From Streptomyces tirandamycinicus (lineage in GTDB: Bacteria; Actinomycetota; Actinomycetes; Streptomycetales; Streptomycetaceae): DNA of 64,000 bases. The notes beneath the pieces were generated by a model, which was given only the letters and a program-made list of their open reading frames with translations, was not told the DNA's origin and made no database searches. The stretch is taken from NCBI RefSeq assembly GCF_003097515.1, contig NZ_CP029188.1, forward strand, positions 6,988,531-7,052,530, read 5' to 3'. Below, in pieces: positions 35,086-64,000 of the stretch (the first letter of the stretch is position 1; each line of letters begins with the position of its first letter). Position numbers and translations under genes: made by a program.

Positions 35086-36852
35086 TCAGGCGATCAGGCC
35101 GCGGCGGCGGACGTGCGGCTCGTACACGGCGAGCAGGATGCCTTCGGCGCGGTCGGGGCTCTTCATGCCGCGGGCCTTCATCTGCTTCTTCGACTCCACG
35201 ACGGCGTAGCCGCCGCTGTTGTTGCCGAGGTTGGGGGTCGTGAGCTGGATGCCGGCCTGGCGGTCGACGCGCAGGCGCAGTCGGCCGGAGCCCGTTGCGG
35301 GGTCGGGCTGGAGCAGGGCGCGGCCGGCGAGCCACATCTCGTCCCGCTTCCGGTACGGGCGCATCACGGCGCCCGGGTCGTCCCGCTCGGGAGATTCAGA
35401 GACCATCACGCCGATGATCTCGGAGTCGTGCTTGCCGTTGTCTCCCCACACGGTGAGCATGCTGACCGCGCCGTGGCCGAGACCGTTCTTGTCGATCTTG
35501 ACGTGGACCTTCGCGGTGGAGCCGAGGGCCTGCGCCAGGCGCTCCGCGGCGTGGACCTCTTCGAGGATCTTCTTGGCGACGGTGACCTGGTTGTCGTTCG
35601 CGGCGCCGCTGGAGTGGTGGCGGTGCTCGACGGCGTCGCCGACCACCCGGTAGATGGTGAACTCGTCGCCGCCGTCCGCGGCGACGTCGATACCGAGGCG
35701 TACCCAGGAGCCGCGCTTGACGGTGTGCGTGGCGGTCTCGCCCTTCAGGCCGAGGTCGCACAGGCGGACCCAGCCGGGCCCGGTGGGGTCCTCGTTCTGC
35801 TGGGCGTCCTCGACCCACGTGACGGGGATGACCTTGCCGCCGCCGCCCTTGGGGAAGCGGGCGTACACCTTGGCCTGGACGTACGGGTGGTCTTCTCCGT
35901 ACTCGCGGATGGTGCGGTCGATCCAGTCCTGATCGGGCAGGTGGATCGCGAGGGAGTGCTTCGGTACGCCCGGGGGGCAGTCGTTGCAGAACGGGACGCG
36001 TTCGTTGGTGATGGCCGGGCTGTCGAAGGTGGCGATCGGGACGGTGACGGTGCCGGGTTCTTCGGGGTCGTCGCCTTCCTCGCAGAGGCCTTCGAACCAG
36101 GAGCGGGGGTCGTCGGCCGGCGGGTTGCCGATGGCGAGCATCCGCGCGTCACCGGTGAGGAGGTTGTTCGTTCCGTTGCCGATGGTGCGGGCGATACCGC
36201 CGGCCTCGTCCACGATGATCAGCAGTTTCGGCGTGCCGTGGATGCCCTGCATGGCCGCCTCGTCGTTCTCCGGGGCGGTGAAGCCGTACGCGACGACGAC
36301 GTCGTTGCCGTAGGCGTCGGGGATCTTCCACTGGGTGGTGTCGCACCATCCGGGCAGGCCTGCGCGGGCGACGGTCTTGCGGATGTGGGGCCACAGCTGG
36401 TTGCGGACCTGCCGGAACCGGGTCGCGGTGGTGACGATGACCATGGTGCCGGGCGGGTTCACGGCCCCGGCCCACGCGACCAGGCGCCCGGCGATCCATG
36501 TCTTGCCGACTCCGAAGCCCGCGGGGCAGGCCACCCTTTTGTGGAAGGGGATGGCGTCGACGATCTCCCGCTGTTTCGACCAGATCGACTCCCCCAGCAC
36601 GTCCTCGATGAACCCGGACGGGGTGTCGTGCCAGAGCCCGTACATGGAGCCGGTCTCGCGCTCGACCTCGGTGAGGACGTGCGCCAGGTCCACGTTGTCG
36701 AGGGTCTTGATGGCCGCGCGGCGCACAGGTACCGGGGCGCGGAGCAGCATGTCGGCGATGCTGGCGGCGTCGGAGGAGCGGACGCCTTGTCGCTTCTCCT
36801 TGGAGGCGTGGGCGGCCACCACGGCGGGGGTCGGGGTGTGCGGGGTGGCCAT
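35086..36852 (-). CDS. Phage terminase large subunit
   Basis: 588 residues. ATPase domain: Walker-A-like GFGVGKTW, Walker B LLIIVDEAGG, coupling region IGNPPADDP. Nuclease domain: first acidic strand RLGIDVAADGGDEFTIY, later HVKIDKNGLGHGAVSML. This is the motor that packages phage DNA, the clearest evidence of phage origin. No small terminase or portal gene is adjacent. ATG 36852 chosen; an in-frame GTG lies at 36861. Confidence 0.9.
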   Translation of the reverse strand: MATPHTPTPAVVAAHASKEKRQGVRSSDAASIADMLLRAPVPVRRAAIKTLDNVDLAHVLTEVERETGSMYGLWHDTPSGFIEDVLGESIWSKQREIVDAIPFHKRVACPAGFGVGKTWIAGRLVAWAGAVNPPGTMVIVTTATRFRQVRNQLWPHIRKTVARAGLPGWCDTTQWKIPDAYGNDVVVAYGFTAPENDEAAMQGIHGTPKLLIIVDEAGGIARTIGNGTNNLLTGDARMLAIGNPPADDPRSWFEGLCEEGDDPEEPGTVTVPIATFDSPAITNERVPFCNDCPPGVPKHSLAIHLPDQDWIDRTIREYGEDHPYVQAKVYARFPKGGGGKVIPVTWVEDAQQNEDPTGPGWVRLCDLGLKGETATHTVKRGSWVRLGIDVAADGGDEFTIYRVVGDAVEHRHHSSGAANDNQVTVAKKILEEVHAAERLAQALGSTAKVHVKIDKNGLGHGAVSMLTVWGDNGKHDSEIIGVMVSESPERDDPGAVMRPYRKRDEMWLAGRALLQPDPATGSGRLRLRVDRQAGIQLTTPNLGNNSGGYAVVESKKQMKARGMKSPDRAEGILLAVYEPHVRRRGLIA

Positions 36853-36890
36853 GGCGCGCACCGTGCATGGCCTGCCCGGCTACCGTCCCG

Positions 36891-61972: not shown

Positions 61973-62965
61973 ATGATCACGCTCAGCCCCACCGGCGCGC
62001 GCATCCTCGACAGCAACAACGACGGCGTCGTCTCTGGCCACGCCGCGGCGATGGCCCGGCTCGAAGCCGACGGCCTGGTGGTCCGGCACGACCGCGACGG
62101 CGGGACGCACTGGATGACCGAGGACGGTTGGACGGCCCTGGACACGTGGCGCCAGAAGAACGGCCGGGCCCCGGCCGCGCCCGTCACCATCCCGCGCAGG
62201 CTGCCCAAGGCCCAGCACGATGCGATCCTGACGGCCGCCGGCCGACCCGACCAGCTTGTCCCGGGCCGGGACGACGGCGACGTGTTCGCCGCCGGGGAGA
62301 CGTGGTTCCGTGGGCCCACGCTGCGCGCCGTCCACGCCGCCGGATACGCGGACTTCTGGCGCCGCCCGGGCGAGGAGAACGCGCCGTACACGGGCCGGTC
62401 CCTGTATCTCACCCCGGCCGGCCGCGAGTACGCCCGGCTGCGCGGCAGCATCGACGTGCACCGCCGCCGGGTCGTGATCATCGCGTGCGGCTCGGAGAAG
62501 CTGCCGCACCCGGGCCGCAACGAGTACGGCAACCTGAACGCGGGCTACCCGGCCGGAGAGCTCTACACCGGCCAGTACCACCGGTCCCTGCGCCTGGCCG
62601 CGGACGCGCTGACTGCCCCATCCCTGATCCGGATAGCGTCCGCGCTGCACGGGCTGGTGGACCTCAAGCGCCCCCTCCTCCCGTACGACGTGACGATCGG
62701 CGACGAGCGCGCCGTTACCGCCGAGAGAGTCGCCCGCCACGCAGCCGAACTCGGCACCGACGACGCCGACGTCATCTTCCTCGGCGGTCAGGAGTACGCC
62801 GCGCTGCTGCGCCCGGCGATCCCGCACCTGCTCACCCCGCTCGCCGGCGGAATGGGCGAGCACCGCGGACTGTGCAAGCAGGCCCGCGAGGACGCCGCCG
62901 TGCGCGACGCCTGGTGGAAGGAAGCCGCAGAACTTCACGCAGAGCACCACCCGGCCCGCGCCTGA
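61973..62965 (+). CDS. DUF6884-domain protein
   Basis: 330 residues. N-terminal helical region of ~60, then RRVVIIACGSEKLPHPGRNE, the CGS/K motif of DUF6884, followed by AGELYTGQYHRSLRLAADAL, IRIASALHGLVDLKRPLLPY and the C-terminal VIFLGGQEYAALLRPAIPHL. Family proteins are common in phages and mobile elements; activity unproven. Sits immediately before the CRISPR-like array. ATG after GGAAGGAAG. Confidence 0.78.
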   Translation: MITLSPTGARILDSNNDGVVSGHAAAMARLEADGLVVRHDRDGGTHWMTEDGWTALDTWRQKNGRAPAAPVTIPRRLPKAQHDAILTAAGRPDQLVPGRDDGDVFAAGETWFRGPTLRAVHAAGYADFWRRPGEENAPYTGRSLYLTPAGREYARLRGSIDVHRRRVVIIACGSEKLPHPGRNEYGNLNAGYPAGELYTGQYHRSLRLAADALTAPSLIRIASALHGLVDLKRPLLPYDVTIGDERAVTAERVARHAAELGTDDADVIFLGGQEYAALLRPAIPHLLTPLAGGMGEHRGLCKQAREDAAVRDAWWKEAAELHAEHHPARA

Positions 62966-62982
62966 GAGGCTATGGTGGCTTC

Positions 62983-63185
62983 ACTCTCCCCGCCGCTGCG
63001 GGGGTGGTCCAGGCCGACATCTGCCCGGCCGGTCCCTGCTCCCCGCGCAAGCGGGGTTGGCCCCATATCCGTTACACCGTGACGGACGAGGCAACTTGCT
63101 CCCCGCACAAGCGGGGTTTCCTCCCTCTTGGCCTCCCGATGAGGCTGCACTGTCCGTTGTTCCCCCGCATGTGTGGGGGTGGATC
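62983..63185 (+). CRISPR. Degenerate type I-E-like CRISPR mini-array, four repeats
   Basis: Repeat-like 28-mers at 62983-63010, 63036-63063, 63096-63123 and 63158-63185. Core CTCCCCGC-N4/6-GCGGGG, best in copies 2 and 3 (GCTCCCCGCGCAAGCGGGG and the same with one change); copies 1 and 4 are more diverged. Spacers are 25, 32 and 34 nt. The repeat form, hairpin and ~60-bp period match streptomycete type I-E arrays. No cas gene is in the window. Confidence 0.7.
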
Positions 63186-63198
63186 GAAGGGATTGGCG

Positions 63199-63876
63199 GT
63201 GTCTCGTACCCCTTCGCGGCCGCACCCGTTGGCCGCGTACGCGGAGAAGATCGACGTAGAGGCGGTCTACACCCTGCGGCAGGTCGCCGGGCTGATGGAA
63301 CTGGCGCCGAGCAGCGTGCAGGCCATGGCTCGCCACGGGTGGCTTCCCGGTAGCCGAGTGCGGCCCCACGCCCGTGGCGGGCGGCGGTACACGTGGACGG
63401 GGAAGCAGCTGCTGCGGCTTGCGAACCGGCCCATCCGGGTCGCGTTCGACCATGAGCTGTTCTCGCCGACGACGCTGTACCGGGTCGGCTGCCGGTGCCA
63501 GACATGTGTGGACGCCCACACGGTAGAGAGCCGGGAGCGTCGCCACCGGCTCTCCGACGAGGCTTTCCCCGAAGAGAAGCAGAAGCGGCTTCTCGGCCTG
63601 GTCGCCGATCAGATGCCCGTGGCCGAGGCCGCAGCAGCAGTCGGGGTGACTCTCGGCCAGGTCTACGGGCGCGCGAACTGGGACCCCTCGTTCGCCGAGG
63701 AATTGGACGAGGCGGCATGGTCCTTGTGCGTGCTGGGCCCGGACTCGCCCGGTTGCAGCACACCGTCGGGGTACCGCGGGTATGCCCGCGGGCGAGACCC
63801 CCGGCCGGCGTGCCGGGGAACCGGGTGCCGGGAGTGGCGCCGGGAGACGTCGCAGCAGGCGCGTGCCGCCGCCTGA
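63199..63876 (+). CDS. HTH protein with Cys-pair, DNA-binding
   Basis: 225 residues. N-terminal HTH (VEAVYTLRQVAGLMELAPSS, then ARHGWLPGSRVRPHARGGRR), a Cys pair in YRVGCRCQTCVDAHTV, and a second HTH in the C-terminal half (VADQMPVAEAAAAVGVTLGQ). Fits a phage regulator or small-terminase-like DNA-binder. GTG 63199 after GAAGGGA; the start lies 13 bp past the last CRISPR repeat, so the array overlaps its promoter region. Confidence 0.72.
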   Translation: MSRTPSRPHPLAAYAEKIDVEAVYTLRQVAGLMELAPSSVQAMARHGWLPGSRVRPHARGGRRYTWTGKQLLRLANRPIRVAFDHELFSPTTLYRVGCRCQTCVDAHTVESRERRHRLSDEAFPEEKQKRLLGLVADQMPVAEAAAAVGVTLGQVYGRANWDPSFAEELDEAAWSLCVLGPDSPGCSTPSGYRGYARGRDPRPACRGTGCREWRRETSQQARAAA

Positions 63877-63906: not shown

Positions 63907-63957
63907 GCTGTCTTGCCCGAGACAGCAGTAGAGGGGCCCCAGAATCTGGGGCCCCTC
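63907..63957. terminator. Double hairpin with strong terminator
   Basis: GCTGTCT/AGACAGC at 63907-63926, then GAGGGGCCCCAG with complement at 63931-63957 (3-nt loop) followed by TTGCTTCC. It ends the rightward arm seen here. Confidence 0.75.
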
Positions 63958-64000
63958 TTGCTTCCGTTCCGCCTGCACCCCCGTGTCAGGCGAGACGGCG

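Follow-up and report, generated by a model that had tools for sequence, protein, structure and literature searches.

What is a short run of type I-E-like CRISPR repeats doing on a mobile element of Streptomyces tirandamycinicus that has no cas genes at hand? The window that we analyzed is a stretch of 64,000 nucleotides (6,988,531–7,052,530 of a genome that forms a single contig of 7,289,495 bases), and the original prediction was that four hairpins near its end make up a mini-array with which the element could turn host type I-E proteins against rival phages.

Anatomy of the repeat array

The anatomical part of that prediction was borne out, both by the positions of the hairpins and by a genome-wide pattern count. 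Four type I-E-like repeats occupy 62983–63186 of the window, with stems starting at 62987, 63040, 63100, and 63162, a spacing of 53, 60, and 62 bp. Hairpins 1 to 3 read TCCCCGC-N4-GCGGGG(G/T), and hairpin 4 reads CCCCCGC-ATGT-GTGGGGG. The pattern CCCCGC-N4-GCGGGG-NTGG, with no more than one mismatch, has 61 matches in the 7.29 Mb genome, 36 of which belong to the host's two arrays (1.32–1.33 Mb) and three to the 200-bp spot in the window, compared to six occurrences of the reversed control pattern in the same genome; on these counts, the cluster is more than chance.

With repeats set at 29 nt, the array runs on the plus strand through repeat 1 (62983–63011), spacer 1 (24 nt, 63012–63035), repeat 2 (63036–63064), spacer 2 (31 nt, 63065–63095), repeat 3 (63096–63124), spacer 3 (33 nt, 63125–63157, containing a small inverted repeat, GCCTC/GAGGC), and repeat 4 (63158–63186), which is the most diverged and has a Shine-Dalgarno-like GAAGGG 3′ of its stem. 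A −10-like box, TATGGT (62971–62976, plus strand), begins 16 nt before the stem of repeat 1. The predicted fold of the whole leader has a z score of −2.4, and its lowest-energy form pairs repeats 1 and 2 together. The window contains no Rfam match at gathering scores, and no tRNA or tmRNA was found in it.

The array sits, as predicted, between two genes of the mobile element and away from cas genes: no cas6e is present in the window, and the sole PF08798 match of the genome is at 1,327,067. The upstream gene (61973–62965, plus strand) encodes a DUF6884 protein, a phage family by PHROGs, and its counterpart region is mostly unrelated in relatives of the locus. A terminase-large-subunit-like gene (35089–36861, minus strand) marks the edge, as inferred from contig coordinates, of a 124-kb IMG/VR element that holds the array. 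The downstream gene (63199–63876, plus strand) starts 12 nt past the last 29-nt repeat and encodes a 225-aa protein with a BldC/MerR-like winged helix at its N terminus, a conserved CxC..C..H motif, a second, homeodomain-like helix-turn-helix (HTH), and a Cys-rich tail, these profile matches being weak and below curated cut-offs. Pfam returned nothing above cut-off, PHROG 4044 (terminase small subunit) weakly covered one HTH, and Foldseek matches to a structure model of moderate confidence (pLDDT 73, pTM 0.48) were mostly partial and HTH-type, with none at E ≤0.001. We therefore refer to the product as a putative DNA-binding protein. A small HTH gene downstream of the repeats, in what appears to be the same transcription unit, is the arrangement typical of Aca genes.

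The leader and the HTH gene behave as a cassette

Homologues of the HTH protein were gathered by protein similarity from plasmids, genomes of the genus and order, genome contigs, IMG/VR, and phages. We obtained matches in five plasmid records, in five of 392 genus genomes and four of 391 order genomes (the window's own included in both genome sets), and at 12 loci in genome contigs, where a first scan with the single HTH protein as query had given no loci. IMG/VR contributed three loci, one being the window's own element, and further homologues came from phages and from plasmids found with a Nocardia relative as query. The same locus as in the window is also present in another Streptomyces genome, G320. 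Removal of duplicates left 27 distinct loci, with the eight cluster BP phages, three of which were read, counted as one, and with two homologues that came from a repeat search (L078 and L083) left out.

At least one I-E-like hairpin lies upstream of the gene in 24 of these 27 homologues, and at least three do so in 18; the carriers include phages of cluster BP as well as plasmids from three further genera. Two repeats each precede the gene in L016 and L018 (near-duplicates), L043, and L044, and one does in L023. Upstream repeats are missing from L015, L017, and L035, the last of which matches the HTH protein only over residues 103–225 and was free of repeats in the preceding 460 nt. On the NBC_00445 plasmid (L009), one or two hairpins of another stem type lie ~200 nt upstream of the homologue. 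The three phages read (L045, Eklok, MT521991, 1974–2338; L046; L047) are isolated Streptomyces sanglieri phages with six I-E-like repeats before a 162-aa homologue; a term search of the available text of the cluster BP announcement (PMC9583777) did not return the word CRISPR. A Nocardia farcinica plasmid (L019, 3640–3905), L043, and L044, from the three other genera, have repeats ahead of a shorter relative, whose match to the HTH protein is limited to that protein's second half.

A −10-like box is found 16–18 nt ahead of the first stem in 14 of 16 non-redundant leaders, compared to 1.6% of random positions in the same loci, placing a predicted promoter shortly upstream of the repeats, and a Shine-Dalgarno sequence lies 3′ of the last repeat. 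The typical order is thus −10 box, usually three to six repeats, Shine-Dalgarno sequence, and putative HTH gene. Among six relatives whose proteins are 80–96% identical, the repeats were the most conserved part (0.95 for repeat 1 and 0.90 for repeat 2), followed by spacer 1 (0.87), the coding sequence (0.85), spacer 2 (0.78), the promoter (0.71), and the upstream sequence (0.60). Since sequence upstream of the promoter is mostly unrelated, leader and gene behave as a cassette; the exception is the pair L028/L030, which retains 0.93 identity upstream of the promoter. By eye, an inverted repeat, CCGAACCGGCT / AGCCGGTTCGG, adjoins the promoter upstream of repeat 1 in L014 and is a candidate operator; CCGAACCGGCTG is shared by L014 and L007, with variants in L026 and L027.

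When the outermost stem pair (mostly U-G) was set aside, the inner stem pairs of leader repeats included nine G-U pairs, one A-C pair, and three other mismatches, which fits selection on a putative RNA more than on a DNA palindrome. Percentage paired, both-sides-changed cells, and covariation score all exceeded 500 of 500 shuffles; 109 of 500 shuffles reached the observed number of covarying pairs and 319 of 500 the number of pair types, so that neither count stands above chance.

Repeats of one leader resemble different type I-E subtypes

For comparison, we assembled genuine type I-E repeats from 54 regions, 30 of which contained an array, giving 66 arrays with 42 distinct consensus repeats, and grouped the Streptomyces repeats as subtypes A, B/B2, C, and D (labels set in this analysis). 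Repeats of subtypes A, C/D, and B belong to separate branches of a Cas6e tree, with L123 and L125 as exceptions. Further Streptomyces subtypes, with CTCCGC or TTCCCGC stems and their own Cas6e branch, were seen in L114, L117, L112, L116, and L118.

Within a single leader, the nearest subtype differs among the repeats. In the window, repeat 1 is nearest subtype A (22/29), repeats 2 and 3 subtype B (26/29 and 22/29), and repeat 4 subtype B2 (19/29). Six leaders form a branch with its own pattern. Repeat 1 matches the subtype C repeat GTGCTCTCCGCGCGAGCGGAGGTGGTCCG at 26–27/29 in five of them (L021, L022, L024, L028, and L034), and in the sixth, L033, where a CCCC/GGGG stem encloses the GCGA loop, it is nearest B2; for repeat 2, the nearest subtype is A in all six (20–24/29 in the same five leaders); and the last repeat is nearest B or B2 in the five scored (L021 not among them), at 19–23/29 excluding L033. 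The repeats of the pZL1 leader read A, A, B, B. As single-repeat labels are nearest-match calls, often at 19–24/29, part of this mosaic could be drift.

The spread within a leader can also be expressed without labels. Mean mismatch between repeats of one leader had a median of 10.1/29 and a lowest value of 5.7 (18 leaders with at least three repeats), compared to a median of 0.73/29 and a highest value of 9.0 in the 66 genuine arrays; of 826 four-repeat windows taken from genuine arrays, only 1.2% are as divergent as the least divergent leader. The leaders thus lack the near-identical repeats of an adaptive CRISPR array. Because the repeats are unlike each other and nearest to different subtypes, it is unlikely that any one Cas6e would cut standard crRNAs from such a leader.

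One homologue lies beside a cas operon. The NBC_00445 plasmid (L010, 9678–18640) carries a type I-E operon annotated Cse1, Cas7, Cas5, Cas6, and DEAD/DEAH helicase, then three repeats, and then a longer, 477-aa HTH homologue; no Cas3, Cse2, Cas1, or Cas2 is listed in this stretch, for which the gene table is incomplete.

The host type I-E system and its contact with the element

The host's own type I-E system at 1.32–1.33 Mb comprises 38 repeat-core matches, mostly at 61-bp steps, in two arrays with the repeat GTCCTCCCCGCCGACGCGGGGGTGTTCCG, which flank the stretch with the genome's only Cas6e match. The leader repeats proved not to be copies of this repeat. The window repeat nearest the host's subtype matches it at 22/29, repeat 4 reaches at most 19/29 to any genuine repeat, and the identity to host repeats that marks a mini-array is absent from the window.

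Cas6e was not enriched where the cassette occurs, being present in 4 of 12 distinct carrier genomes (a set without the L033 genome and the plasmid hosts) vs. 89 of 199 Streptomyces background genomes. According to the available text of PMC10651486, ~90% of viruses and prophages bearing solitary repeat units (SRUs) infect hosts with CRISPR-Cas. The scarcity of Cas6e among carriers allows two readings: either the element resides in hosts that lack this immunity, or its host range is broad.

We compared 129 host spacers from three carrier genomes with the elements, of which 11–15 kb was covered for the two carriers other than the window's host. A single spacer matched its own resident element. 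It belongs to the window's host (L001, 13645–13676) and matches, at 30/32, a phage tail gene of the resident prophage (7,079,976–7,080,007; L164, 5976–6007) within the 124-kb IMG/VR element, which by its inferred boundaries starts at the terminase gene. The target has a mismatch at position 1 and is flanked by AAA instead of AAG, the PAM reported for Streptomyces avermitilis (PMC4762764). We considered self-targeting as proof of anti-CRISPR activity and rejected it, since both differences look like escape at the sequence level; the match shows contact of the host immune system with such elements, not inhibition. A spacer of genome G320 (L159, after index 310) matches viral contig L055 (11008–11031) over 22 identical nt, the rest being mostly mismatches, and L055 itself carries a mosaic array.

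Spacers are inherited by point mutation, with no convincing targets in phage and plasmid records

None of the three window spacers had a convincing protospacer among 50,697 phage and 72,556 plasmid records, so that matches to related viruses or plasmids, as expected of a mini-array, were missing from these records; the best match (29 nt at 89.7%, E 0.04) was to Rhodococcus plasmids, mostly in an alcohol dehydrogenase gene. Leader spacers vary in length from 4 to 40 nt; when 40 of them were compared with 43 loci at 34 bits or more, matches occurred only at the same position of related leaders. Relatives hold the same spacers at the same array position, differing by point mutation, and the three BP phages differ at four bases in 385 bp around the leader. 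Spacer turnover was not seen between close relatives, and distant relatives share too little to tell. In distant elements, same-position spacers were more alike than different-position spacers for spacer 1 (p 0.009) and spacer 2 (p 0.011), and spacer 3 was without positional conservation (p 0.56).

The proposed role against rival phages is not supported by these results: no convincing protospacer was found in phage and plasmid records, spacers are inherited by point mutation, repeats within a leader are unlike, and Cas6e is not enriched in carriers. The original prediction had itself named spacers conserved across related elements as grounds for regarding them as structural, and conservation is what we observed, visible at long range for spacers 1 and 2 only.

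Conserved spacers could instead be fixed guides, with host Cascade employing them as crRNAs that silence or cleave one unchanging target, for example a gene of the host or a standard rival. In many relatives, the lengths of spacers 1 and 2 are close to that of type I-E spacers; spacer 1 equals the gene in conservation among the six relatives, and the likeness of same-position spacers across distant elements points the same way. We nevertheless consider this unlikely, given the lack of a convincing protospacer in phage and plasmid records, neighbouring repeats that are nearest different subtypes, other spacers as short as 4 nt, and a third spacer without positional conservation.

Mosaic arrays occur in viral contigs without the gene

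When IMG/VR was scanned for the pattern, 54 stretches containing two such hairpins came up, including five on a single contig, and the HTH protein family adjoins the repeats in only three, one being the window's own element. Among 30 non-redundant arrays with at least three repeats and room on both sides, 22, including the window's own, were mosaic by a mean mismatch of at least 5, a cut-off chosen after the values had been seen. A −10-like box accompanies 11 of the 22 (background 3.7%) and a terminator-like inverted repeat 12 (background 3.0%), compared to two and one, respectively, of the eight non-mosaic arrays. Mosaic arrays without the gene were seen in L092, L061, L066, L068, L097, L055, and others of L048–L101; in L092 the order is roughly B, A, C, C, and L061 contains B, A, and C. 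Several have a 49–50-bp period, which corresponds to 20-nt spacers.

These arrays bear on a regulatory reading in which the repeats form a 5′ leader that responds to Cas6e: when the last repeat, near the Shine-Dalgarno sequence, is cut, translation of the HTH protein would rise or fall, and the element would in this way sense the host's type I-E system. In most Streptomyces relatives, the last stem begins ~36–40 nt ahead of the start codon and is followed by the Shine-Dalgarno sequence, a position that would suit such a switch. A single cleavable hairpin would suffice for it, however, rather than three to six unlike ones, and similar mosaics occur in viral contigs without the HTH gene, about half with a terminator-like inverted repeat. 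We judge this reading improbable.

Likeness to genuine repeats extends beyond the stem in one orientation

Outside the stem, and read as transcribed, 71 non-duplicate leader repeats share 10.8 of 16 positions with their nearest genuine repeat; the figure is 6.4 for flanks read backwards and 7.1 for random flanks. The forward direction was better for 66 of the 71 repeats and worse for two, and all 21 leaders agreed (p 3e-5). A flank match of at least 11/16 was reached by 37 of 71 leader repeats vs. 1.4% of random ones. The expected match to type I-E repeats was therefore found, in the transcribed orientation only.

Against isolated hairpins, the outcome depends on how the strands of the control are treated. 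With both strands counted, the control mean was 8.4 (75 sequences, p 2e-10); with the better strand taken for each of 36 hairpins, it was 10.4 (p 0.15). Leader repeats are similar to known CRISPR repeats in sequence and hairpin, but the better-strand control does not separate them. Eight of the 36 score 13–16, and without them p is 0.0004 (28 hairpins, the cut set after the values had been seen). These eight may be stray genuine repeats, as the control loci include regions around cas operons. Leaving out cas regions and pattern-scan contigs leaves three control hairpins, with a better-strand mean of 8.3 (p 0.07).

We also considered whether the hairpins are terminators and rejected this: those of the window are without T-runs, a clear terminator-like hairpin lies 3′ of the gene at ~63935–63958 (by eye), and stems alone would not produce the oriented flank likeness. 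The hairpins could, alternatively, be binding sites of the HTH protein itself, as DNA operators or in RNA, with no CRISPR link. The protein looks DNA-binding, and the sites are palindromic and adjoin its gene, but a symmetric operator needs neither the likeness to genuine repeats in loop and flanks nor its single orientation. Moreover, one branch has the stem, loop, and prefix of subtype C repeats, the NBC_00445 leader hairpin shares its CCCCAC/GTGGGG stem with the array beside the local cas operon, and mosaics occur without the HTH gene, all of which make this explanation highly unlikely. That uneven repeats and a short first spacer might mark a decaying array drifting without function, one half of what had been predicted (the other, a specialised form, stands), is scarcely credible: spacer lengths and repeat 4 of the window are irregular and many repeats reach only 19–24/29, but the repeats are the most conserved part among the six relatives, are kept with promoter, Shine-Dalgarno sequence, and gene in many Streptomyces elements, and stand ahead of a homologue across three families of bacteria as well as in phages.

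Discussion

On balance, and going by sequence, we take the locus to be probably a multivalent RNA anti-CRISPR decoy together with its regulator. The predicted promoter directly before repeat 1 would produce an RNA whose four hairpins mimic type I-E repeats. Host Cas6e, perhaps with Cas7 and other Cascade subunits, would bind and cut these hairpins and become tied up in unproductive complexes, as with solitary RNA anti-CRISPRs (Racrs). Because the hairpins in one leader resemble different subtypes, one leader RNA could occupy the Cas6e of several Streptomyces type I-E lineages. The HTH protein, made from the same transcript, would most likely repress the shared promoter in the manner of an Aca protein, as in acr operons. 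Short and uneven spacers are irrelevant for a decoy and relevant for guides.

Several observations run against a decoy. The window leader is a weak mimic, both of the host's subtype and in repeat 4. A pure decoy would have no need of a spacer 1 conserved to the same degree as the gene. Carriers show no enrichment for Cas6e, three homologues (L015, L017, and L035) are without repeats, and the predicted fold pairs repeat 1 with repeat 2.

The closest known parallels are Racrs and solitary repeat units, which are likewise described (PMC10651486, available text) as repeat mimics on viruses and plasmids, without cas genes and after a promoter, and which sometimes share a transcript with a protein gene (RacrIC1-AcrIC5). 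RacrIF1 is reported there to inhibit by binding Cas6f and Cas7f, mainly via RNA upstream of the Cas6 cut. The cassette described here differs in its tandem repeats (usually three to six), its several type I-E subtypes, and its tie to an HTH gene, and its repeats are not solitary in the sense of having no full or partial repeat within 100 bp. The SRUFinder procedure, as given in that text, dropped full matches <100 bp apart, as well as candidates whose flanking 100 bp contained a partial match (>70% identity); therefore, most tandem repeat mimics would have been left out of that survey.

Virus-borne mini-CRISPR arrays (PMC6858448 and PMC11656645) are also short, on mobile elements, and without cas genes, but as portrayed in the text available they have host-identical repeats and mostly spacers against related viruses, neither of which we found. 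Like acr-aca operons and the dual Acr/Aca protein AcrIF24 (PMC9638941 and PMC9001735, text available in part), the cassette would be a counter-defence unit with an HTH protein; the inhibitor here would be RNA, and the HTH protein is likened to Aca by arrangement only. Genuine Streptomyces type I-E arrays (host L001; S. avermitilis, PMC4762764, as excerpted) share hairpin geometry and, in part, the 61-bp period with the leaders, which differ from their near-identical repeats, uniform spacers, and location beside cas genes. A survey of plasmid CRISPR systems (PMC9071438) reports orphan arrays, and its main text, so far as available, does not name Streptomyces. No paper on tandem repeat mimics of several subtypes was evident by title or start of abstract in the open-licence literature, which makes for a weak negative.

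Beyond this locus, it is quite possible, judging from the leaders and viral contigs compared here, that multivalent RNA anti-CRISPRs are widespread on actinobacterial phages and plasmids, as tandem mimics of different type I-E lineages in one transcript that would disable the Cas6e of many hosts, with one branch having its own HTH regulator and moving as a cassette. If this is true, RNA anti-CRISPRs are not only single repeats, and elements of wide host range combine several mimics in one RNA. The persistence of certain short, uneven "orphan arrays" on mobile elements would then also have an explanation. A search rule follows: unlike adjacent repeats, with a promoter before them and a terminator or an HTH gene after them. 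The cluster BP phages, which are sequenced and have six repeats in the three read, would be a tractable model, and such decoys could aid genetic work in Streptomyces with native type I-E systems.
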